33,776 bases of DNA, taken from assembly GCF_000003605.2 (NCBI RefSeq), contig NW_003155746.1:107527-141302 (forward strand), in the 5' to 3' direction. Shown here in pieces: positions 3,446 to 31,738 of this stretch (positions within the stretch are counted from its first letter, which is position 1; every line of letters begins with the position of its first letter). The notes under the pieces were generated by a model, which did no database searches, was not told where the DNA came from, and saw only the letters and a list, made by a program, of their open reading frames with translations. The DNA is from Saccoglossus kowalevskii (taxonomy: Eukaryota; Hemichordata; Enteropneusta; Harrimaniidae). The position numbers and the translations under genes were made by a program.

Positions 3446-6400
3446 ATGGGAAGATGTGTTATATCCATCCGAAGACGATCTCCTTTCAGATTACTTATCT
3501 TAATCACATTAATTTTCTTTTTAATATTGGTTATAATTTTAATACAAAAGGTATGTTGTTTCCTTGTAGTATCTTTACATGTACTACAAACTACACCTTG
3601 ATTAATAATAATTTTTTTCATAGTCTTTATTTTCACATTCACACCACACATTATTCATTGCATTGTGGTCGCCATCCATTAATTGCATCCAGTCACAGAT
3701 TCATTGCCTTTCCTTCTTGCGTAATTACATCCCATACACACATTTTACCGCTGCAGGAAAACACAAACAATGGTGCCCATGATAATTTCATTAAAGAAAT
3801 GATTTAATATATATTAAAATTACTGTATCAAATCACAGAATTCATGATCATTATTACTCCCTCGGTGCATGTAACAAATCTCTGTCTGCGATACTGTAAA
3901 ATACGACAGAATCATTGATCTGTGTTAAAATTAGGTGTCAGAAAATTCACGTCATCTGATTGGCTCAACTGAACCAGATCCTTCTGATCACCCAAAACCA
4001 AACGGTTATCTTCCCAACCACATTTTATCATCATGTTTAGCTAGTTCTGGGAGTAATATTTTTCATATCTACAAAATAGGAATGCAACATTACAACTTGG
4101 CAGGATTGTTATGGTGGTCTTCTGTCATAGTACTTAAGTCATGTAGAAACAACTAGAATACATTTAACTTCTTCTCATTCATTTCAGAGGCAGTTGGTTG
4201 ATACCTCATATAGAATGAATGTGCAAGAAAATACAAACGACAAACTCGCGATAAATACAACTAGAAAAATAGAATGCCAAACTAAAAAAGAAGTTGAAAC
4301 TGTCTATACACAGATGATTTATAAAGATGTAATGGGCAAGGTGAGACATGTTACATAGAAAGCAGAGTTGTGTAAAGAATGTACTCTTGTCTAATTGGTG
4401 CAGTCATTTTAAAAACATAATTGCTGATATTTGGAATTGTCAAAAATATTCAAATTTAAAAATTTCAATATCAATTCTTCAATAAATCTACTGTCAAGAC
4501 TATGTATTTGTGAGGGCAAAAAAAAAGATCTGTTTCTGGTCCAAAGTTTCTTTCAGAAACAATACAGTCATGTGAAACATCAAGAAAGTTGATCTGTACA
4601 TGTGTGAACAAAATATTGTGCAACCAAGGGCAGGCACATTCCCCCATTTTGATTCATGTGTGCATATTAAGTAGCTAATTTGCATATTAATTATATTTAA
4701 GGTTTTGATCAAATTTGGTACATGGATACCTCAGGGTAATATGCAGATATGATTAGTTTCGGAGCCATGACTATGCATAATAAGTAGCTAATTTGCATAT
4801 TGTCTCATGTCAGTCTGTATAAGCAAAATCTCGAAAATTCAGAACAGATTTTGATTAAATTTGCTAAACATTTGTGATGAACATCAGCTGCCTGATGAAC
4901 CTAACTTTTAATGCCATTGTTCTTTCACTGACTGTTTTAGATATTTTTTTATAACACAACAATGATTGCATTTATTCTTTATTCATGTAGAAGTTTTTCA
5001 AAGATCTTTACTTTGTGTCAAATAAAACAAAACAAATCTAATGTTTTTATAAGCAAAATGGTATTTTTAAAAATTGTCAATTGGTTAAAATAAGATTAAT
5101 AATTTGGGCTACTCTAAAATGATCACTAGATCTCCAATCTCCAATGACCACGGGAAAAGGTGATTCACATTTTTAGTCCCCGTTCGGACGCAGTACGAAA
5201 ACGGGGACTTATGTTTTGACCTCCGTGCGTCTGTGCGTGCGTGCGGGCGTGCGTATCTTAGAAATGCCTGGACCAATTACAATCAAACTTCACACATACA
5301 TCATACATGATATCATACATATGCATGTCAATTTGTTAATGATCTGATTCAAGATGGCCGAATAGCGGCCATTTTTGTGCTAAAAAATCATAAAAATCAA
5401 CCATTTCTCGGCTGTTTACAGATGGATTTTGTTCAAACTTGGTATATGCATTAGACATTATTGGACCTTGATGCAAATAATTTTGTTTTTCAGATAACAT
5501 TCAAAATGGCCAACTGGCGGCCATTTTGTATTAATCAATGTGGTTCTCGTGCCATATCTCCGACTTGTTTTTACTGAATATGTTCAAATTTTAAATATTC
5601 TTTATACATCATGTCATAGATAGACAGATATATTGGTTTGACAATCCTATTCAAAATGGCCGAATGGTTGTCATTTTTGTACTAAAAAATAATCAAATAT
5701 TAATAGCATTTCTGGCATTTATGGATGGATTTCATTCAAACTTGGTACATACATTACACATTACGGGTTTTTCAGATCAGATTCAAAATGGCTGTCTGGC
5801 GGCCATTTTGTTTTAATGAATGAGTTTCCAGACCCATATGTCTGACTTGTTTTGACTGATTAAGTTCAAATTTTTAATATTCATTATACATCATGTCACG
5901 GATATATTGGTTTGACAATTCTTTTCAAAGTGTGCTATTTTTGTGCTAAAAAAATCCTCGAATATAAAGCATTTCTTGCATTTATGGATGGATTATAAAC
6001 ACACATTAGACATTACAGGTTCCTGATGCATGTCATTTTATTTTTCAGATTGGATTCAAAATGGCTGACTGGTGGCCATTTTGTTTTAATGATTGGGCTT
6101 CTAGAGCTACATGTATATCTCCTAAATGCTTTGACTGATTATATTCAAATTTTATATATTCGTTATACATCATGTTATATATATATATATACATGTATTC
6201 AAAATGGCTGATTTTGAATGCTGTTCCAGAGCAATATTTCTCAATATGAACAAGTACTTGTTTGACGATCAGATACAAATGTCAATCATTTTAATGTTAA
6301 AAAAATCATATTCCTGACATGGTTATATTCCAGCTATATTACTATAAACATAACTATATATCTTAAATTTGATAACTAACGGGGACTGTGCCATGCATGG

Positions 6401-9400
6401 CTTGTATTTTATGTTTTATTTTAACAGGACTTGTTCAGTATGAGAACAAAAGATGTCAGTGTTTTGAAGAAAGTTTGCAGCGTTCTTGATTCATGTAAAG
6501 GGTTCAATAGCAATGGATGGCTGAAGAAAAGTGTATCACCCTTAGTTCAAGGGGCAACTGATCTCTTTATTAAGGAAAACGTTACGGTACGCACCTTACC
6601 GCTAGTTCACCCGGCAATAAAATAAATACTGTCAGCACATCATTTATATCAAGAAAGCACTTCACCTCTAGAGGGCGCTGCTTTATTACCAGTCTACTGC
6701 AGAAGAGGAAATGTTCATTTTGTTTAATTTTAGCAGATTTGTTGTTAATATTTTTAAATTAACTGGTGTGTGATGGAAACAACTATATTGTCCAGTATGA
6801 ATATTCACTTGATTTTAATTTAGTGCATCCAGCTGTCAGCAGAATAAGCGAAAATAAAACCCAGTGAATAATTAGCTTTTTGAGCATCAACATTTTTTCT
6901 GCTTAAATTTGGGTAATTATTTTTACATTTTCTGTAATTTTCATTGATTTTAATCTAAATTATGGACCAAACAGACAAATGTGACATTGCATCTAGTTTT
7001 TAAACAATAAATTTAAAATTTTCACAACAATTTATGTGAAAAAAAAGCAGACTAGAAATGAAACTATTTTGTGGATGGTTCCTGAAGTTGACTTTGGTGC
7101 TCAGAGAGTTAAGCCCAATACACCTGTAAGAAGAGGAAATACTGTAAAATACTTTATTTTAGCTGGAATAAATTTTCGCTGAATAGCCTTTTTGAATGTT
7201 TTGCATGGAATTTATTTTCACTTATTTTTGACGAGTTGAATGTAAAATATAGAAAAAAAGGTATATTCGCTGGATTTTATTTTCACCGAATCATTCCTTC
7301 AGCGAAAATAGCAAAAATTAATCCCAAGCAAAAATAAATTATTCTACAGTATTTACCGGGTTTTAATTCAGCACATAAGCTGTCAACAAAATAAATGAAA
7401 ATAAAAGTCCAATACACTTTTCCAATCAGTTCTTTTCTGTTATATTTTCACAGGTTATAAAGGACTCGCTCACAAATACAAACAATATAATGAAACTGGA
7501 ATATGAAGAAATGAAATCCAATTTAAAAATCTATATATATGATATAGACATAGGTACAAATATGAAGTCACCGAAGGATTATAAATATGGTGTGGAGTCG
7601 TTATTTATTAATCTGCTTCGTAATAGTAAATTCAGAACTCAGGTATGCTTTATCTGTTTGTGAAATGAAAACATAATAATAATAATGTCTGTTTTTTATC
7701 AGAACGCTATAAAATGATCAAACATGTATGTTGCCACTTGTATGTTGTTGACATGTAAGCATATGTTAGCGCATATAGTAGTGACAATATTTTGTGTGAA
7801 AATATGTCAATAATTACCGGTATTTAACAGAGTGTTAACTGTTTTATTTCGCTGTCAATCTGTTTTTTGAGTAAAACTTTCAAAGAATATTTGTACAATA
7901 GCGATGATTTCTATATTTCAACATTCTAAAAACACTTTTAGACATGTACCCTTCAGACAATTCATGTCATTTTTTCACCCAAAGTCACCGCCCAAAGTTT
8001 TTAAATTTATCCTTGCCTAGGAAAACAATGGTAAAATGCTGTGAAATAGACAAAACATTTCTATTTTCGGTCCATCAATTATCTCTGTACTTGAAATGTT
8101 ACATATGTAAAAATAAAGAAGATTACATTATTGTTACTATTGTGTAGCATCTTACCTTACACTTAAACAATTCTGTCAGTCCCCTTTGTGTTCAGTTTAG
8201 ACTGGTTTAATTTAAGGTAGAGATGCAGTTTACCTGACAGGTATTTTAATTAGTTAATTAGGAAACCAAGATGACCTCCCTTGTGCACAAAACTATGTAT
8301 TTTCGAAAAGTTTATTGTATGAATTGTAAAGTTTTGTTAGTATTTTATTTTTATGGACACTGTAGTTTGAAATATGCACAAAAATGTGCTTTTTTGGTCA
8401 AAAGTGATTTAAAAAAAATTAGCTTCTAAACCATGCTTCTGTTTCCTGTCAAAATTGGTTTATGTGTACATCTGTTTACTATGAAGAAAGCGCCGTCTTG
8501 AAAACTGTCTACCAGTTGTCAATTTTGTAGGGCAGCAGCTCAAATTTCACTACTTCAAGTTTATGCATAAATTAACACCCAGGCTAGTTGTCTGTACAAT
8601 TGCTGTAACACTATTCAACTAAAAACAATGCCCCAACGGCGTTTTGAAGATAAATACATTGTCAATCATTTGTGAAAATTTCAAAACAAAAGGTCAAAGC
8701 GTCTACGAGCTATTTTTTTTTTAAATTTTGGAATGTGCACTAAAAAAAAAAGCCAAGATAATTGCTAATTTGCATAACAATTCACTCAGTAAGAAGTTTG
8801 CTAATGCTCATAATTAAAATGGCTGTTACAGTTTCAAATTTAAATATATTATCGTTTTGTAAAAAGTTAAATACAGTGCATAATATGGAGATCCCGTCAT
8901 TTCTTTTTTTCCATCATGTTTTTTTTAATTATTTATGTACAGCCTTGGTAAATCTTGCTAAGCATTCAAAAGAGATAATTTTGCACCAGTTATCTATATT
9001 TTAAAATCGTTTTTTGGGTATGTTCCACTATTCACAATTCTACAAAACTTCAACAGTCTTATAGCCAAGACTTTTGGGATAATAAAAAGCAAAAAAAAAA
9101 AAAATTTCACTCCCAAGTGCCCACGAACCTGCATCTCTACCTTAATTTAAAATATCATAATCATAACTGTTTCCAATATACTCATTAATAAATTCCAACA
9201 GTCTACAAAATCAAAGTATGTTTGAGAGGTGGAGAATACTTGGATAATACTTTATTAAACTGTTTTGATTTCATAATATTGTCATTTTCGTAAATTTTGG
9301 AAATCAGTAAAAATTGAAAAATGTTTTAAACAGTGAAAATTATACCTTAAGAATTTCAGTCACAGTGACTTTATGGAAAGTTGTCTCCACAAAATGTTTT

Positions 9401-12400
9401 TTAAGGTAGAAGCCTACTCATAAATTAAAATACCCAGAATTTATTCATTTTGCAATAATTGTACTCCAAGGCAATATGAGGATATTGATGTAAAAAATGT
9501 TTGGGGTCACCAGCCTTATTTTCGAGTAATTGAGTAATGGTTGTTTTTTAGTGGAAAGTCGCCATTTTGGGACTATTTTAACACTTTACCACAGGTTCCT
9601 ATGACAAAGATGTTATGCAATATCTCAAAATCTATATATGAAAAAATCATATATTATTAATGACAGAGTACTTTTTGTTGTTCTGAATTTCAAAAAATCT
9701 GGGTTTTAAAAATTGTTCTAAAAATAGCGATTTTCGAGAAATATTAGGACATTTAGGATATTTCTCAAGAAGCTTAACTGTAACACACAAAATACGGATA
9801 TTTCATTGTATTATGGGACATTATCTTCATTATTGTACATGATAACTAATAATCATTGTCATGTGATTTATGACCAATTTTGTCAAAAATTATGAGTAGG
9901 CCTCTACCTTAATCACCAAATTACAATAATTCCTAATCCAGTACATGTTGTTTGATAATGGTATTGGCATATTCGCATTGTATTTACTTGATTTAATTAC
10001 AGGAAGCCAGTGAGGCAACGTTTTTCTTCATCCCTTCACGGTGCACTGCGTACAGATATTCGGTGTCCGACCGTGACCAAGGAGGAAAAGTTGCAGAGGA
10101 AACGATGAAAGATATCCTACAATATATTAAATCAACGTAAGTACAGTAAAAATAAATATGTAGTGTTTCCGATATTTTCTTTTTATTTATCATTGACTTA
10201 TGAAGCATTTACCATACTTCCGAGTCATTATTTTTAGACATTTAACAAGTTGAGGGTTTCCATGGTTACATACCCAGGGTGTTGACATGTAATGGGTTTT
10301 TTTATTAATGTATAAGTGTAAAAAGTGTTCCATTTCATGGAAATCATTATTGGTATAGTACCCTGGTAGTTCTTATTTTGGAGTGTGTATATATGACAAA
10401 TATACTAGTTATAATATACACTACTTGCATCAGAATCTAACCAATCAGAATCTGTAATTCAAATCGAAACGCTTACATTTGTTCACAGACAAATTAGCAA
10501 GTCAGTAACAAATCGCAGAATTTTATAGCAGCCAAAATTCCTCGAAGCAAAAATTAAACCTTTTACTGTATATTAAAGGTGTTCAACACAATATAGACAG
10601 TACATTGTAAACCGTACACTTTATATAAATCTGTTTTAAACAGAAAAACTGTATCATGCATATTAAGATTGTAAAATTACCACACTTGATGAACAAGAGA
10701 TGAACATTGAAACAGAGACGGACATCCTCTCAAATACCATATGTGATATTTCTAATCCCTGTATAAGAAATGTATCATTGAAACCATAATAAGCCATATC
10801 GGTAGGTGTTGACTGAAATTCCATTATTGATTCAGAACGCAGTCACTGATTGGTTAATCTCCGTCTGCGTGGAAAACGCCGTAATGTTCTATTTCACTTT
10901 TAAAAGTAAAACGGTAGTTGTGTACCAGTTTTTAGTTCGTGCTCAACTAGGGGTCAGTTCTACAAGTTTATGTATTTATCAGTTTGTTGAAGAGTTTCGT
11001 TCGCAAATAAATGCAGTTCATGTTATCAATTGATTCGTGAGAGTTCAAGTTCAGCTGAAATCCTCCTCATTACATGTTGGAATGTGGCCAACCGAACCCA
11101 ACCACAAAATGTGTGCTTCGATCATTTTTGAATCATCACAATGCAAGAAAAGCAGAAAATTCATTCCCCATGCATTTAGATTGCAGTACAAATAAAAGTA
11201 TTCAAAAAGTATATACAGATATTTGTGTAATTCATAACTGTAATTTCATATACACCATTGTTTATATCTGTTTGATCGGTACAGATTTCCTTACTGGGAT
11301 CGGAGTGCAGGAACAGATCACTTCTATATATGCAGTCATGACATGGGCGGAGAAGTCACCAAACAATCAATTCCAAATCTGCTGAAAAATTCCATAGCTC
11401 TATTAAACACGGCAGATTACGAAGATCGTTATTTCATGCCACACAAGGTATCTCATTTCTTTATACAGCATTACCGGTATATTTATAGCTTTAATACTGT
11501 AAAATAATTTATTTTCGCTTGGAATTAATTTTCGCTGAAGTGATGATTCAGTGAAAATAAAATCCAGCGAATATAACTTTTTTCCTATATTTTATATTCA
11601 ACTCGTCAATTTCATTCCATAAATTCCATACAAAACACCCAAAGATTCTTTTCAGCGAAAACTAATTCCAGCTAAAATAAAGTATTTTACAGTGGTGTTG
11701 TCACATTGCTCAATGTTGACTGAAATGCATGAACGGGTTTTAGGAACCTTATCAATAAATTTTTATTTTTCAAGGGGTCAGTAATATTATGAGAATTAAT
11801 TGATACTGATTAATGGAAACTCAGGTTTAATTTGAGCTGATGACCTTGAAATTTTCAATTTTATTTCCAATCACACCTGTGATACATCATATGAATTCAC
11901 TTTCCCATGTATTATTAACAGTTTATTGAGTTTCGTGTTACTGTAAAACCTCTATTAGAAGCCGCAACTTCTATTAAAATGGTACAATGTAACAGAGGAG
12001 ATGCAGTTTTTATTAGAGCATCTATACATATGAGAAATGATCAATTTTTGTTTCTCAGTCGTTCAAGAAAGAATGAGTGTATCTTCTATTAGGGATGCGG
12101 CTTCAAATACAGATGTTACTGTACTCAGTATTAATGGATAGATCTTGTTCATGAATGGCACAAAAGTCACAAAACTTTTTTTTGCCTTTTCTCCTCCTAA
12201 ATAGTGTTACATTGTCTACCGCCATTGTGTACAGAATGGAACAATATTTAAGAGGGGGAAAAAACAAGGTGCATGTCTCTCTCGCTCTCTATGTGATTCC
12301 GGTGGCCATTTGCAAATATGGTATAATTGTATGCCTGCTGCCCCATGTCTTGTTTCCCATATATCATTGTACTACCAGGTTACCATCCAATTATGTTGTC

Positions 12401-18400: not shown

Positions 18401-20083
18401 NNNNNNNNNNNNNNNNNNNNNNNNNNNNNNNNNNNNNNNNNNNNNNNNNNNNNNNNNNNNNNNNNNNNNNNNNNNNNNNNNNNNNNNNNNNNNNNNNNNN
18501 NNNNNNNNNNNNNNNNNNNNNNNNNNNNNNNNNNNNNNNNNNNNNNNNNNNNNNNNNNNNNNNNNNNNNNNNNNNNNNNNNNNNNNNNNNNNNNNNNNNN
18601 NNNNNNNNNNNNNNNNNNNNNNNNNNNNNNNNNNNNNNNNNNNNNNNNNNNNNNNNNNNNNNNNNNNNNNNNNNNNNNNNNNNNNNNNNNNNNNNNNNNN
18701 NNNNNNNNNNNNNNNNNNNNNNNNNNNNNNNNNNNNNNNNNNNNNNNNNNNNNNNNNNNNNNNNNNNNNNNNNNNNNNNNNNNNNNNNNNNNNNNNNNNN
18801 NNNNNNNNNNNNNNNNNNNNNNNNNNNNNNNNNNNNNNNNNNNNNNNNNNNNNNNNNNNNNNNNNNNNNNNNNNNNNNNNNNNNNNNNNNNNNNNNNNNN
18901 NNNNNNNNNNNNNNNNNNNNNNNNNNNNNNNNNNNNNNNNNNNNNNNNNNNNNNNNNNNNNNNNNNNNNNNNNNNNNNNNNNNNNNNNNNNNNNNNNNNN
19001 NNNNNNNNNNNNNNNNNNNNNNNNNNNNNNATCATTATGCAAATTAGGTAATTAATATAAACAGATTTTTACCCAAAACTAATGAAATCTGCGCATTAGA
19101 TCAGAGCATCCATGTGCCAAGTTTCATCAAAATCCAATGAGTGGTTCTTCAAATATCAGTGGAACAGTCATGGAACAGCTTAAAATCAGTTAATTATCAT
19201 GCAAATTAGATATTTAATATTCATAGATTTTTACCAAAAACAAATCAAATCTGCGCATTAGTTCAGAGCATCCATGTGCCAAGTTTCATCAAAATTCAAT
19301 GAGTGGTTCTTCATATATCAGTGGAACAGTCATGGAACAGCTAAAAATCAGCTAATTATCATGCAAATTAGGTAATTAATATTCATAGATTTTTACCAAA
19401 ACCTAATCAACTCTGCGCATTATCCCAGAGCATCTATGTACCAAGTTTCACCAAAATCTGATTAGTGGTTCTTGAGATAACGGTGGAACAAAAAAAGTGA
19501 CATACATACATACATACAGACATACGGACATACAGACAGGGTAACTGCAAAGACTCCCTTTTGTGCTTCGCACACGGGAGTCAATAAAATTGAGGGAATT
19601 TACTTCACAGTTGGAGTGTCCAAGTCACTGTGCATGTAAAAAATGGATAGTGAAATATGGGTCTACCAGATAACAATGCAGTGAGACAAATGCAATACTT
19701 GAAAGTGCGGGAGTCATCACCTACGTATGTGCGAGGTGGCCATAGTGTATCATTGTTCATAAACAAGCATTTATCCATGAGCCTTTGCATTCTTAGCGTG
19801 TGTTGTTATCATCGCTTGGTACTCAATTCCCGCGCATGCGCAGGTGACGGCCCTCTCGCTTTAACACCCATACTGAAATGAGTGTCTACTTTTATTGCAG
19901 GTCCCAGAGTTAAAATCAATTTTAATGTCCATATCAGAAGATGAACTCTCTCGCAAACAAGAGTTGATATCTCAGATATACACTTATTTATCATGGAATA
20001 ATCCAAGTCAAGATTACGATGCATTTCATATGGTACTGTATGAACTATGGCAAAGAAGACACATTATGCGATATTACACATAA
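3446..20083 (+). CDS. Type II membrane glycosyltransferase, GT47 (exostosin) family, complete, 10 exons
   Basis: Coding exons: 3446-3550, 4188-4340, 6428-6586, 7454-7642, 10003-10136, 11285-11447, 14766-14890, 16516-16654, 17378-17509, 19901-20083. They join in phase to 493 codons plus TAA. The start ACCATGGG has a good context. Residues 1-15 are basic (IRRRSPF); 16-33 form one hydrophobic anchor (LLILITLIFFLILVIILI), so a Golgi/ER type II topology is expected. N-glycosylation sequons are at N58 and N137. The exostosin domain begins near KIYIYDI (164-170). It includes EATFFFIPSR, FPYWDRSAGTDHFYICSHD (248-266), ISVPPHPGKPP, a NIFASFAGTLDRGRVRP block, KFCLILRGH, and SPRLMDSVWFGCVPVIIADY with VIDWQDIAVIIPE (about 390-432). 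This is the GT47 nucleotide-sugar-binding fold. There is no GT64 domain as in EXT1/2. Donor and acceptor sugars cannot be told from sequence. Confidence 0.92.
4620..4870. repeat. Degenerate copy of the CTAATTTGCAT / TTTGGTACAT repeat module
   Basis: In intron 2, GTAGCTAATTTGCATATT occurs at about 4670 and again at about 4785. The first is followed by TTTTGATCAAATTTGGTACA. Read backwards, this matches the order of phrases in the 162-bp tandem units at 19037-19480 (ATGCAAATTA and CCAAGTTTCATCAAAAT). It looks like an old fragment of the same repeat family in the opposite orientation. Confidence 0.45.
5175..6387 (+). mobile_element. Hairpin-ended modular repeat element, copy 1 (intron 2)
   Basis: The left end is AGTCCCCGTT, then a 15-base insert, then AACGGGGACT, a 10-bp perfect hairpin stem. 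The right end is AACGGGGACT (6378-6387) followed by a perfect GCCATGCATGGC palindrome and CTTGT. The body consists of modules spaced about 130-150 bp. Each has a foldable core such as AAAATGGC...GGCCATTTT (5351, 5503, 5653, 5785, 6058, 6200) and the phrase TTCAAACTTGGTACATA. I found no coding capacity. A second copy is at 26934-28274. I do not recognise a named family. Confidence 0.7.
7142..7349 (-). mobile_element. TA-flanked CTGTAAAAT MITE, family A copy 1
   Basis: The 208-bp element in intron 3 begins CTGTAAAATACTTTATTTT and ends ATTATTCTACAG, with TA on each side (7140-7141, 7350-7351), as for Tc1/mariner-type insertions. The ends are inverted repeats that also contain TTCGCTGAA / TTCAGCGAAAAT. 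The internal part is the reverse of copies at 11497-11692 and 26445-26620. It has no coding capacity. Confidence 0.75.
8216..9141. mobile_element. TTAA-flanked non-autonomous element, 926 bp (intron 4)
   Basis: GGTAGAGATGCAG at 8216-8228 is perfectly inverted as CTGCATCTCTACC at 9129-9141. Both sides are flanked by TTAA (8212-8215 and 9142-9145), the target duplication typical of piggyBac-type transposons. The interior is AT-rich, with no reading frame I can relate to a transposase. The terminal GG is unlike the usual piggyBac CCC end, so the superfamily is uncertain. Confidence 0.65.
9405..9908. mobile_element. TTAA-flanked non-autonomous element, 504 bp (intron 4)
   Basis: The left end after TTAA (9401-9404) is GGTAGAAGCCTACTCATAA. 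The right end before TTAA (9909-9912) is its near-perfect inverse, TTATGAGTAGGCCTCTACC. The first six bases, GGTAGA, are shared with the neighbouring element at 8216-9141, so the two are probably related by the same transposase. No coding capacity was found. Confidence 0.7.
10137..11284. other. GT47 intron 5, mostly unrecognised
   Basis: AT-rich intronic sequence. A fragment at about 10520-10570 (TTCCTCGAAGCAAAAATTAA then TTTTACTGTA) looks like one end of a family A MITE. I recognise nothing else. Confidence 0.4.
11497..11692 (+). mobile_element. TA-flanked CTGTAAAAT MITE, family A copy 2
   Basis: This 196-bp copy begins CTGTAAAATAATTTATTTTC and ends AATAAAGTATTTTACAG, just inside intron 6 of the GT47 gene. 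The left flank is TA and the right flank is TG, a decayed target site. The internal GAAAATAAAATCCAGCGAAT phrase is opposite in orientation to copy 1 and the same as copy 3. Confidence 0.75.
11941..12121 (-). mobile_element. TA-flanked MITE, family B copy 1 (AGAAGCCGC type)
   Basis: The element begins CTGTAAAACCTCTATTAGAA and ends near ACAGATGTTACTG, with TA on both sides. It contains TTAGAAGCCGC and GGATGCGGCTTC inverted relative to each other, and shares TTGTACAATG/CATTGTACC-type and TCTCATATG phrases with the second copy at 29999-30178, which lies in the opposite orientation. Confidence 0.65.
12448..12861. mobile_element. MITE with 16-bp perfect inverted ends (intron 6)
   Basis: GTTTGGTTTAATTTGA at 12448-12463 is exactly inverted as TCAAATTAAACCAAAC at 12846-12861, 414 bp overall. 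I see no clear target duplication and no coding capacity. Confidence 0.6.
13028..13140. mobile_element. Small inverted-repeat element (intron 6)
   Basis: GCAATATAGCTCATTG near the left end is imperfectly inverted as CAGTGAGATATATTGC near the right end, with internal TATCAATATTG repeats. About 110 bp, possibly a short MITE. Confidence 0.4.
13698..13935 (+). mobile_element. TTAA-flanked piggyBac-type MITE, copy 1 (intron 6)
   Basis: TTAA (13694-13697) is followed by CCCTTTCACCACCAG. The right end is TTGGTGGTGAAAAGG followed by TTAA (13936-13939). The CCC start and TTAA duplication match piggyBac-type ends. The interior (GGAAATGAACCCT and similar) reappears inverted at 15054-15272. The short open frame inside is not a transposase. 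Confidence 0.75.
14123..14514. mobile_element. MITE-like element with AAATTAGGTC / GGCCTTATTT ends and an 18-G run
   Basis: The left end reads AAATTAGGTCAAAAAAAAAT and soon TTGCCG. The right end, inverted, reads AAATAAGGCCAAAAAAAAAA and then TTGCCC. Both arms also contain GACCGACC-type words. A run of 18 G lies at 14303-14320. It sits in intron 6, about 250 bp upstream of exon 7. Confidence 0.5.
15054..15272 (-). mobile_element. TTAA-flanked piggyBac-type MITE, copy 2 (intron 7)
   Basis: The left end is CATGTCACCACCAGTTCCC after TTTAAA. The right end is GTTGTTGAAACGG before TTAA (15273-15276). Its reverse complement aligns with copy 1 over most of its length (for example TTTCTGGAAATGAACCCT), so the two copies form an inverted pair around exon 7. 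Confidence 0.7.
15545..16355 (+). mobile_element. Probable eroded third copy of the hairpin-ended modular repeat (intron 7)
   Basis: The start reads GGGACTTATAAATTC, as after the left hairpin of the copies at 5175 and 26934. It then has CTGTATCTCAGACATACCTGG, the core AAGATGGCCAAATGGGCAGCC at about 15675 (given here as one module), and later GACAGCCATTTTGTTTT. The terminal hairpins are not intact. The right limit near TGACTTGT at about 16355 is a guess. Confidence 0.5.
16614..16715 (+). repeat. 51-bp tandem duplication across the exon 8 / intron 8 boundary
   Basis: The unit 16614-16664 contains the last 41 bases of exon 8 and its donor (AGG|GTAAGT). It is repeated at 16665-16715. The coding-like part is almost identical (one T-to-G change in the first 33 bases), but the donor of the second copy is destroyed (CTCTTAAG instead of GGGTAAG). 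The frame stays open through the donor, so retained RNA would encode a second EFSKCCLILRGH before TGA. Confidence 0.8.
16834..16965. mobile_element. Short MITE with AAGGG...GTCACGCC / ACGACCACTGCCCTT ends (intron 8)
   Basis: The left end AAGGGTGATGGTTGTCACGC and the inverted right end AAGGGCAGTGGTCGTATCGC match at most positions. The same type of end (GGTNGTCACGC) is found in the elements at 24753-26094 and, in a shorter form, at 19709-19853. About 132 bp, no coding capacity. Confidence 0.55.
17159..17343. mobile_element. TA-flanked CTGTAAA...TTTACAG MITE (intron 8)
   Basis: It begins CTGTAAATACATTAATTAAT and ends AATGGTTTTACAG, flanked by TA at 17157-17158 and 17344-17345. It contains a long internal hairpin, AATTTAGTGAA / TTCACTAAATT (about 17185-17214). 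It ends 34 bp before exon 9. Confidence 0.6.
18150..19581 (+). mobile_element. Element with ACTCCCGTGTGC inverted ends and 162-bp internal tandem units (intron 9)
   Basis: ACTCCCGTGTGC at 18150-18161 is perfectly inverted as GCACACGGGAGT at 19570-19581. The interior holds tandem 162-bp units: ATGCAAATTA recurs at 19037, 19199 and 19361, and a degenerate unit lies left of the gap. They carry the phrase CATGTGCCAAGTTTCATC. The array is followed by an ACATACATACATAC-type microsatellite (19501-19539) and a strong terminal hairpin, GACTCCC...TGTGC-TTC-GCACA...GGGAGTC (19551-19582). The assembly gap lies within the array. No coding capacity is visible. Confidence 0.7.
18294..19030. other. Assembly gap (Ns)
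   Basis: 737 unknown bases inside a tandem repeat array; the gap probably reflects unassembled repeat units. Apparent long reading frames through it are artefacts. Confidence 0.99.
19709..19853. mobile_element. Short MITE carrying a GCGCATGCGC palindrome (intron 9)
   Basis: The left end GGGAGTCATCACCTACGTAT matches the inverted right end GGGCCGTCACCTGCGCATGC over most positions. A perfect GCGCATGCGC (NRF1-like) lies at 19832-19841. The element ends about 47 bp upstream of exon 10. Confidence 0.5.
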
Positions 20084-21140
20084 AAACAATTAAAGTTCTA
20101 TTCTATAAGGGTTTGCAATGTTTCATAATCATGTACAGTGACATCACATCATGTGATCGAGTACAAAATTTTACATTGTGCACTATTTTATACGAAGAAC
20201 TTGTTGAAGAATGACAAATTTGTTGGTATATCTGCTGTGACTTATGAACAATGTTGTTACATCAAATCTCATTTAAAATACTGTTATATATTTAAAATAC
20301 TGTTTTTCGAAGATGATGTTTACGTTTTGATCTTGTCACATTGAAGGGTACTGGTAATATTCAAATTGTTTGTCATCTGCTTTTAGTCAAAAGCAAAGTA
20401 GTAGGCAAATATAGTGAAAAGATTTAGTTGAAGAATATTTTAATTTCAAATTTACTTTCATACTAATTCATGAGTCATACATTATCAGGTTTTATTTTAT
20501 AGTTTTTGATTTGGGGCAGTGTGCATTTTAATTTTAATACATGCATTGTACATGTTGCATGGGTCCCATATCAAACACGACTAAAAACCGTGATGCTTTC
20601 ATATTTTTCTTTACTCAAATTTTCAGTTATTGTTTATGAAATTAAATTTATGACTAATGCAATAAATGTTATCCTCATTTTCTGTTACTATAGTTACCAA
20701 TAATGCAGCTAATACATTCTAGCTTCACGCCAACAAGACATTCTGCTACATGTCACATAATTAATTTATTTGTTTATTAAGTGTAAGAACAAGCAACCTG
20801 ATGACTGAAATAGCGCCACTGTTTCAGCAGAGCACAGCAATAAGTGCATAACAACATCCATAACCACTTTACTTCAGTCTTTGGAAGGAATTCAGTTGAT
20901 TTAACAGGAGAATCGACCTGCTCACACAGACGAAAACAATTCGAACATGACGTACTAACACATGCTGACCGACACAGGGACGCACAGACTTAAGCATAAA
21001 CAAAGTTATTTGCACACCATACTATAGATGGCGCTCTCACTATAAACCGCCACACATGCACAGTTATATAAATATGATAGTGGAGAAATGAACCCTAGCT
21101 TTGTTTACGTTCTATTTTAAGTTTCTCCCAATGTCACAAA
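20084..21140. other. GT47 3' UTR and start of the convergent spacer
   Basis: This AT-rich stretch follows the GT47 stop codon. The first well-formed AATAAA on the plus strand is at 20661-20666; a weaker ATTAAA occurs at 20089-20094. I recognise no other gene. Confidence 0.45.
20661..20666 (+). terminator. Candidate poly(A) signal of the GT47 gene
   Basis: AATAAA about 580 bp after the stop codon. The choice rests on position only; transcript ends would decide it. Confidence 0.35.
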
Positions 21141-21475
21141 ATGATCTACTAGTAATGGAGACCCATGGTACATGTACATACCAAGGTATATATAAATATA
21201 AAATTAAATGATCTACTAGTAATGGAGACCCATGGTACATGTACATACCAAGGTATATATAAATATAAAATTAAATGATCTACTAGTAATGGAGACCCAT
21301 GGTACATGTACATACCAAGGTATATATAAATATAAAATTAAATGATCTACTAGTAATGGAGACCCATGGTACATGTACATACCAAGGTATATATAAATAT
21401 AAAATTAAATGATCTACTAGTAATGGAGACCCATGCTACATGTACATACTAAGGTATATATAAATATAAAATTAA
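21141..21475. repeat. 67-bp tandem array, five copies
   Basis: Units start at 21141, 21208, 21275, 21342 and 21409 with ATGATCTACTAGTAATGG. The first four are identical as far as I can see. The fifth has two changes (ATGCTACA and ACTAAGG). Each unit contains CCATGGTACATGTACATACC, a partly self-complementary core. The near-identity points to recent expansion or ongoing homogenisation. Confidence 0.9.
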
Positions 21476-22032
21476 ATGATCCAGCAGCTATCAAGAAATC
21501 AAATAGCACTTTTGACTAAAAATATTGAATTACAGATGGACACAAAATAGATTAATAGAGCTCTACCCAAGGTAATAGCATAGCAATTGCAGTAACATTT
21601 TTTTGTAAAAATAGCATTTTCATTAAAAATATTAGAGAATTTTAGATATTGTCCTGAAATTTGCTAGCGTCCCCTTTTTGTTTAGTTGTCAACAAGATGC
21701 AACCTTTCAGTGACATATGGATTGCACTATATTATTCTGGGAAGCCAATGCTTGTATTGTGTATATTTTCTATATTTTGAAAAATTCTTTATTTTTCCCC
21801 CCCAAGCATACTCTGTATTCTTGGGTGCACACCATTTTACCATGTATTTCTATGAGCTGCTGTGGAACGCTGATGAAACAGAAACAGCACAAACCAAACT
21901 TTCATCTTAATCTTATATGCGTTTCACATGCAGGGGTAAATCTTATTACACTGTTCAGGATACCCTCATTAACTATCCCAAAGTACTGTTTTCTGAGAAT
22001 CTACGACCTTTGTTTTCACCATGACACATGCT
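21476..22032. other. Spacer between two tandem arrays
   Basis: AT-rich. Short open frames exist here, but none resembles a known protein or has a supported splice context. Confidence 0.35.
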
Positions 22033-22435
22033 TTTTAGTAATTTGCTTTGTGATGCGTTTGAGGACAAATTTTAGGTATCTCAAGTTGTTTTTGCATTAT
22101 GTATGCAACTTTACACTATGGGGAACTTGCCATTTTCATAGAAACAAGGCCCCCTCCCATGCACACGCATTTTAGTAATTTGCTTTGTGATGCATTTGAG
22201 GACAAATTTTAGGTATCTCAAGTTGTTTTTGCATTATGTATGCAAGTTTACACTATGGGAACTTGCCATTTCCATAGAAACAAGGCCTCCTCCCATACAC
22301 ACGCTTTTTAGTAATTTGCTTTGTGATGCATTTGAGGACAAATTTTAGGTATCTAAATTTTTCTTGCATTATTTGACTACTCTATAGGGAACTTGCAGAT
22401 AACTTGCTTTGTGATGCATTCGAGGGAACATCATT
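22033..22435. repeat. ~137-bp tandem array, three copies plus a degenerate fourth
   Basis: TTTTAGTAATTTGCTTTGTG recurs at 22033, 22170 and 22306, spaced 137 and 136 bp, followed in each by ATGCRTTTGAGGACAAATTT and further shared sequence. A partial fourth copy (AACTTGCTTTGTGATGCATT) begins near 22399. Copies differ by scattered substitutions, so this array is older than the 67-bp array. Confidence 0.85.

Positions 22436-23027: not shown

Positions 23028-31738
<8,711 letters not shown>

Follow-up and report, generated by a model that had tools for sequence, protein, structure and literature searches.

What kind of mobile element combines hairpins at its ends with a row of foldable internal modules, and do the paired stem differences between its copies reflect selection on a folded structure? 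This question is raised by a stretch of 33,776 nucleotides from the hemichordate Saccoglossus kowalevskii (assembly GCF_000003605.2, contig NW_003155746.1, positions 107,527 to 141,302 of the forward strand), hereafter called the window, which holds two such repeats, copy 1 and copy 2. A first-pass annotation, made from the letters alone, had described compensating stem changes between these copies, and proposed that the mobilising machinery may recognise the element by its folded DNA or RNA or, alternatively, that the palindromes are homogenised by template switching. The analysis reported here indicates, with a probability of about 0.92, that both repeats represent a protein-less Helentron of the HINE type, whose machinery would be encoded elsewhere. 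This assignment is backed by subterminal inverted repeats (subTIRs), a 5' hairpin, a microsatellite, central tandem modules, a 3' palindrome, ends abutting T, T-rich insertion sites and hundreds of copies. The family belongs to an element type that has already been described, an outcome that the first-pass annotation had named as speaking against its proposal; this holds at the level of the element type, and the mechanism would follow by analogy.

Both copies present their parts in the same order: AGTCCCCGTT, a 15-base insert, AACGGGGACT, a microsatellite of the GTGC/GTCC type, palindromic tandem modules, AACGGGGACT again, a short palindrome and CTTG. Because AACGGGGACT is followed by the palindrome and CTTG at the 3' end, the element ends were set at 6404 and 28294, beyond the earlier limits of 6387 and 28274. 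The end structure is asymmetric, with both arms at the 5' end, and one arm plus an unrelated palindrome at the 3' end. Folded as DNA, the 5' hairpins of copies 1 and 2 reached -12.3 and -13 kcal/mol, with z values of -4.7 and -6.4, respectively, and the 3' palindromes in isolation gave weak folds (z -1.2 and -2.5). In the central array of copy 1, five modules were counted, at 5351, 5503, 5653, 5785 and 6058, and the repeat period of about 280-300 bp is made of alternating subunits. On re-reading both copies, the annotation's terminal hairpins and palindromic modules were confirmed, as were the letters it quotes. Its statement that there is no open reading frame holds for copy 1 at a threshold of 80 amino acids; copy 2 has one frame of 101 amino acids (27620-27925), as judged by frame length and not by profile. 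An Rfam scan of the window found no family.

With up to one mismatch, AACGGGGACT occurs eight times in the window, against 0.55 expected after shuffling, and none of 100 shuffles reached eight; the six exact occurrences all lie inside the two elements and the two with one mismatch lie outside them. A scan for the end architecture, defined as a 9-mer whose complement occurs once within 30 bases and a second time 0.3-2.5 kb downstream, returned 11 hits, four at the ends of both elements and seven from copy 1's own modules, whereas 60 first-order resamples of the window yielded 0.5 hits on average and never more than 5. The family was then followed through the 572-Mb assembly of 4830 contigs (the window has a GC content of 34%). 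A search for the exact 5' hairpin pattern found 828 places, against none for the reversed pattern used as control. When the palindrome was left free, the 3'-end pattern gave 392 forward and 395 reverse matches, with a few double counts among those listed, and its control again gave none. By using the whole of copy 1 as query, at least 62 genome matches were obtained (40 of 4109 first-look candidates scored), and for copy 2 at least 52 (40 of 1870).

The insertion sites are rich in T. Among the 43 5' ends collected from loci, the left flank ends in TT in 42. The 3' ends in the loci fall into subfamilies A (31 copies), B (5) and C (3), to which D and E are added from the genome listings; of the 31 A copies, 29 have TT and 2 have TA as the right flank after CTTG, and all five B and all three C copies have TT. 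In the empty-site test, left and right flanks were joined for 34 pairs of a start and an end, with 31 distinct 3' ends among them, and compared with the collected loci (numbered L) and the window, and junction-spanning alignments were obtained for 10 joined-flank entries. Two extra Ts at the filled site were the best or commonest alignment in six of them (L004, L008, L017, L025, L027:2254 and L029). This net gain of two accounts for 5 of 6 alignments for L004, 58 of 86 for L008, 16 of 33 for L017, 5 of 6 for L025 and 5 of 7 for L029, and for the two best alignments of L027:2254. The two Ts represent either a TT duplication or Ts borne by the element. The annotation's remark that no target duplication is obvious fits the clean sites, apart from this possible TT.

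A dispersed repeat (TAGCTGGAATTAATTTTCGCTGAA...) occurs three times in the window, at 7160-7312, 11528-11674 and 26464-26600. Since its copies elsewhere carry HINE insertions (L004, L025 and L029), the window copies represent empty sites. Tandem or compound arrangements were also seen, in L010 (3' ends at 2718 and 2922), L027 (2492 and 2686), L051 (5' ends at 63 and 1501) and L015. They consist of a full element with a 5'-truncated tail, or of two elements in a row, and could reflect rolling-circle read-through.

An autonomous partner was sought through its proteins. The PF14214 profile gave eight genome matches, and the Rep protein of L054, used as query, gave 27. L054 has an uninterrupted Rep frame of 961 amino acids and a PIF1 frame of 497 amino acids, together with a single one-mismatch AACAGGGACT that has no hairpin partner. 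L056 (2988-5314) is a decayed locus at a contig end, with Rep-like pieces and PIF1, followed downstream by a 225-amino-acid Exo_endo_phos frame in the same orientation (26.4 bits, cut-off 24.5); its gene order is the Helentron layout, preserved as a decayed relic. Rep loci were covered at 8 to 11 kb on contigs C2261 (L054 and L055), C1479 (L056, cut by the contig end), C2224 (L057) and C167 (L058), and L032-L038 over 2 to 3.4 kb only; the Rep-match places at C1873:69469, C2719, C689, C4131, C1855 and C994 fall outside this coverage. On two 11-kb contigs, L034 (C238) and L035 (C3452) have a Helitron_like_N match with identical scores and open frames of 1446 and 487 amino acids, and are possibly haplotigs or a contaminant.

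Several of these results weigh against the assignment to HINE. Four of the ten empty-site entries are not clean (L044, L027:1501 and two in L015). An 11-base direct duplication flanks the L044 copy (1501-2731), in contrast to the two added Ts of the clean sites. Even among the six supporting entries, the two top L008 alignments give a net gain of three, and the gain of two in L027:2254 is seen in just 3 of 49 alignments overall. In addition, AACGGGGACT ends were found on no Rep/helicase locus among those examined, with coverage being partial, and the autonomous partner sharing the ends is therefore unproven.

The second part of the question concerns the stems. For the 5' hairpin, sequences were taken from loci with a spacing of at least 15, at most two mismatches per arm and at most three in all (n=43). 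The commonest inner stem is CGGAC-GNA-GTCCG; the GTACG of copy 1 is therefore a stem mismatch, and the A-T pair of copy 2, cited by the annotation as replacing G-C, is the product of two CpG transitions. In 50 listed of the 828 genomic hairpins, where the pattern holds the outer stem constant, 20 one-sided and no two-sided changes were seen in the inner stem CGGAC/GTCCG. Over the whole stems of the 43 locus hairpins there are 48 one-sided and three two-sided paired cells, the latter against 1.67 expected from column frequencies. These three, with window copy 2 among them, sit at pairs 7-29 and 12-22, both CpG bases, and CpG transitions make up 31 of the 62 changes in the 5' hairpins. When the 43 locus hairpins were joined by 35 listed places without a locus, the resulting 78 inner stems gave two double paired versus 39 one-sided cells (permutation mean 1.09, P 0.30); for the 43 whole stems the three double cells compare with a permutation mean of 1.20 (P 0.11; within subfamilies P 0.24). 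The double counts exceed the permutation means, without significance.

For the internal modules, 189 of 216 extracted modules were kept after dropping 27 with more than four mismatches; L001, a repeat of the window copy, and L018, a repeat of L017, are omitted from the count. At the pair cited by the annotation as changing from A-T to G-C, AT is found in 121 modules, GT in 40, GC in 14, AC in 10 and other combinations in 4. Mismatched modules are present in the window itself, A-C in copy 2 (27094 and 27678) and G-T in copy 1 (5351), so a clean swap does not describe the data. A naive 2x2 test at this pair favours the compensatory reading (Fisher P 0.0015), a signal that arises from module types, since 10 of the 14 GC modules share one upstream context. 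Over the whole module stem, 253 one-sided changes stand against 20 double paired cells, with a permutation mean of 18.97 (P 0.44), or of 17.71 (P 0.21) when permuted within module types.

For the 3' palindrome, 48 of 87 candidates resembling AACGGGGACT were left without a subfamily; these are mostly unrelated matches with one or two mismatches, and include one truncated B-like end (L017). The second pair of the stem, read at 100 listed places, is T-A in 57, C-G in 33, A-T in 5, T-G in 2, and T-C, A-G and C-A in 1 each. Sorted by subfamily, C-G is found in 33 of 37 A places and is restricted to A; A-T is found in all five D places and is restricted to D; T-A marks B (56 of 57) and E (1 of 1). 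In a second listing, which put no constraint on the stem (100 rows, 97 distinct places), one-sided stem changes within subfamilies were found at 15 places, two-sided changes at none and a change of the loop only at three. In the 3' stem, paired replacement is therefore seen between subfamilies only, as a handful of events accompanied by different loops. The C-G to T-A change that had been noted in the right hairpin is real, although it is a subfamily-wide difference in which the loop differs as well. This pattern fits conservation of the 3' hairpin, and it equally fits the swapping of whole 3' ends. It is conceivable, if rather doubtful, that one Helentron machinery accepts several 3' hairpins (with a C-G, T-A or A-T pair and different loops) on an identical subTIR. 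If so, recognition of the 3' end would depend on hairpin shape together with the subTIR rather than on the sequence of the stem, and swaps of the 3' hairpin and central modules would give rise to new subfamilies. With several 3'-hairpin subfamilies, one subTIR and hundreds of copies, the family is a natural data set on what the Helentron 3' end needs.

These counts bear on the explanations first offered for the locus. That the stems are under compensatory selection, with folded DNA or RNA being recognised, appears unlikely: the 3' stem does survive sequence replacement between subfamilies, yet within them one-sided changes prevail by 15 to none, as they do in the 5' inner stem (39 to 2) and the modules (253 to 20), in both cases with no paired excess over permutation. 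Homogenisation by template switching, which would yield paired changes without selection, is considerably less probable still. The central modules are indeed tandem and alike internally, but such a process should give perfect palindromes, whereas A-C or G-T occupies the cited pair in 50 of 189 modules, and one-sided changes dominate. Compensatory evolution and homogenisation are both unsupported because paired changes do not rise above permutation (78 hairpins, 189 modules) and single-sided intermediates are abundant. The covariation check over many copies suggested by the first-pass annotation thus found no covariation in the 5' hairpin or the modules, and support for compensating change is limited to a small signal between subfamilies in the 3' hairpin. 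The case shows how two copies alone can give an impression of covariation, which vanishes once many copies are compared, at CpG pairs especially. A foldback or MITE (miniature inverted-repeat transposable element) mobilised by a DDE transposase is the least probable alternative, and a very improbable one. Inverted terminal motifs would suit it, and the bivalve pearl-family elements are described as MITEs in the passages cited (PMC5139131), but the 5' end has both arms and the 3' end one arm with an unrelated palindrome, and the only possible target duplication at clean empty sites is TT. The annotation's view that the elements stand outside the standard MITEs is accordingly retained.

For the HINE-type element, the mechanism would run as follows. 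A Helentron Rep/helicase/endonuclease supplied from elsewhere would recognise the element ends; the 5' end would serve as the start, with one strand copied by rolling-circle replication; copying would stop at the 3' palindrome, and insertion into TT would follow. Hairpin ends are plausibly recognised by the mobilising machinery, as inferred for Helentrons, and this part of the fold-recognition proposal can be kept, while its compensatory evolution is unsupported. The stem differences between the two copies are one-sided or CpG mutations in the 5' stem, differences of module type with mismatched intermediates in the modules, and fixed subfamily differences in the 3' stem.

The features of both copies and of the empty sites are collected in Table 1. 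Further tandem arrays lie in the window at 19037-19490 (162-bp unit), 21139-21481 (67-bp unit, 99% matches) and 22019-22372 (136-bp unit). An open frame of 109 amino acids at 2-331 resembles a DDE transposase by eye, and Pfam gave no match for it.

Table 1. Positions in the window of the two elements, their parts and the related empty sites.
Feature	Positions	Strand	Remark
Copy 1 (subfamily A, with GCCATGCATGGC at the 3' end), HINE-like non-autonomous Helentron	5175..6404	+	T at 5174 and 6405
5' subTIR AGTCCCCGTT, copy 1	5175..5184	+
Inverted repeat AACGGGGACT, copy 1	5200..5209	+	complement of 5' subTIR; hairpin partner of 5175-5184
GTGC/GTCT-type microsatellite, left module of copy 1	5220..5254	+	approximate limits, by eye
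Central array of diverged tandem modules containing ATGGC..GCCAT palindromes, copy 1	5340..6230	+	outer limits approximate
3' subTIR AACGGGGACT, copy 1	6378..6387	+
3' palindrome GCCATGCATGGC, copy 1	6390..6401	+	followed by TTG
Copy 2, architecture as copy 1, subfamily B (GTCATTTTCAATGAC 3' end)	26934..28294	+
Hairpin of 5' subTIR and inverted repeat, copy 2	26934..26968	+	inner A-T pair (versus G-C), two CpG transitions
140-bp tandem modules, copy 2	27092..27486	+	92% matches
Second internal microsatellite, GTCC-type, copy 2	27483..27572	+	precedes repeated left-module segment
3' subTIR AACGGGGACT, copy 2	28265..28274	+
3' palindrome GTCATTTTCAATGAC, copy 2	28277..28291	+	followed by TTG
Paralogous empty site for L025 and L029 copies	7197..7312	-	filled site has two more Ts
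Paralogous empty site for L004 copy	26488..26600	-	filled site has two more Ts

The comparison with known systems rests on the passages cited from each source. When the literature text was searched, at least one of three end 10-mers matched in 115 papers, with no transposon paper by title among the 20 listed, and the only match to a module string was unrelated by title. Canonical Helitrons share a presumed rolling-circle mechanism, a 3' hairpin and the lack of a clear target-site duplication (TSD), but are described with 5'-TC, CTRR-3' and an A/T target (PMC4067079), whereas the ends here are AGTC and CTTG, between Ts; the element was therefore not classed with them. Nor was it classed as a MITE, as its ends are asymmetric and the clean empty sites show at most a possible TT duplication. 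In bivalves, satellite-like arrays are associated with Helitron or pearl elements (PMC8268682, PMC5139131), and Pearl/DTC84 has, as here, short satellite-like arrays in a small non-autonomous element, a likeness that concerns the internal arrays (PMC5139131). DINE-1 and HINE-Mo have, by description, subTIRs, a 3' palindrome, a microsatellite or tandem repeats, a TT target and border T runs in common with this family (PMC4067079). The published definition of HINE comprises subTIRs, an inverted repeat, a microsatellite, central repeats, a 3' palindrome and a TT target without TSD (PMC4067079, PMC7492417), and the parts found here match it in kind and order, with TT targets. Another example is Cg_HINE of the oyster Crassostrea gigas, for which a link to an autonomous Helentron was likewise not achieved by the oyster authors (PMC7492417). 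It has a 5' subTIR of 11-12 bp with a complementary inverted repeat, a GTCY/GTCC microsatellite, central tandem repeats of 140-180 bp, and a 3' subTIR with a palindrome, and it prefers TT for insertion, without TSD (PMC7492417). The Saccoglossus elements differ in having a subTIR match of 10 bp and, in copy 1, a period of roughly 280-300 bp with alternating subunits. All the listed parts of Cg_HINE are also present in the Saccoglossus family, a likeness established by published description and not by sequence (PMC7492417).
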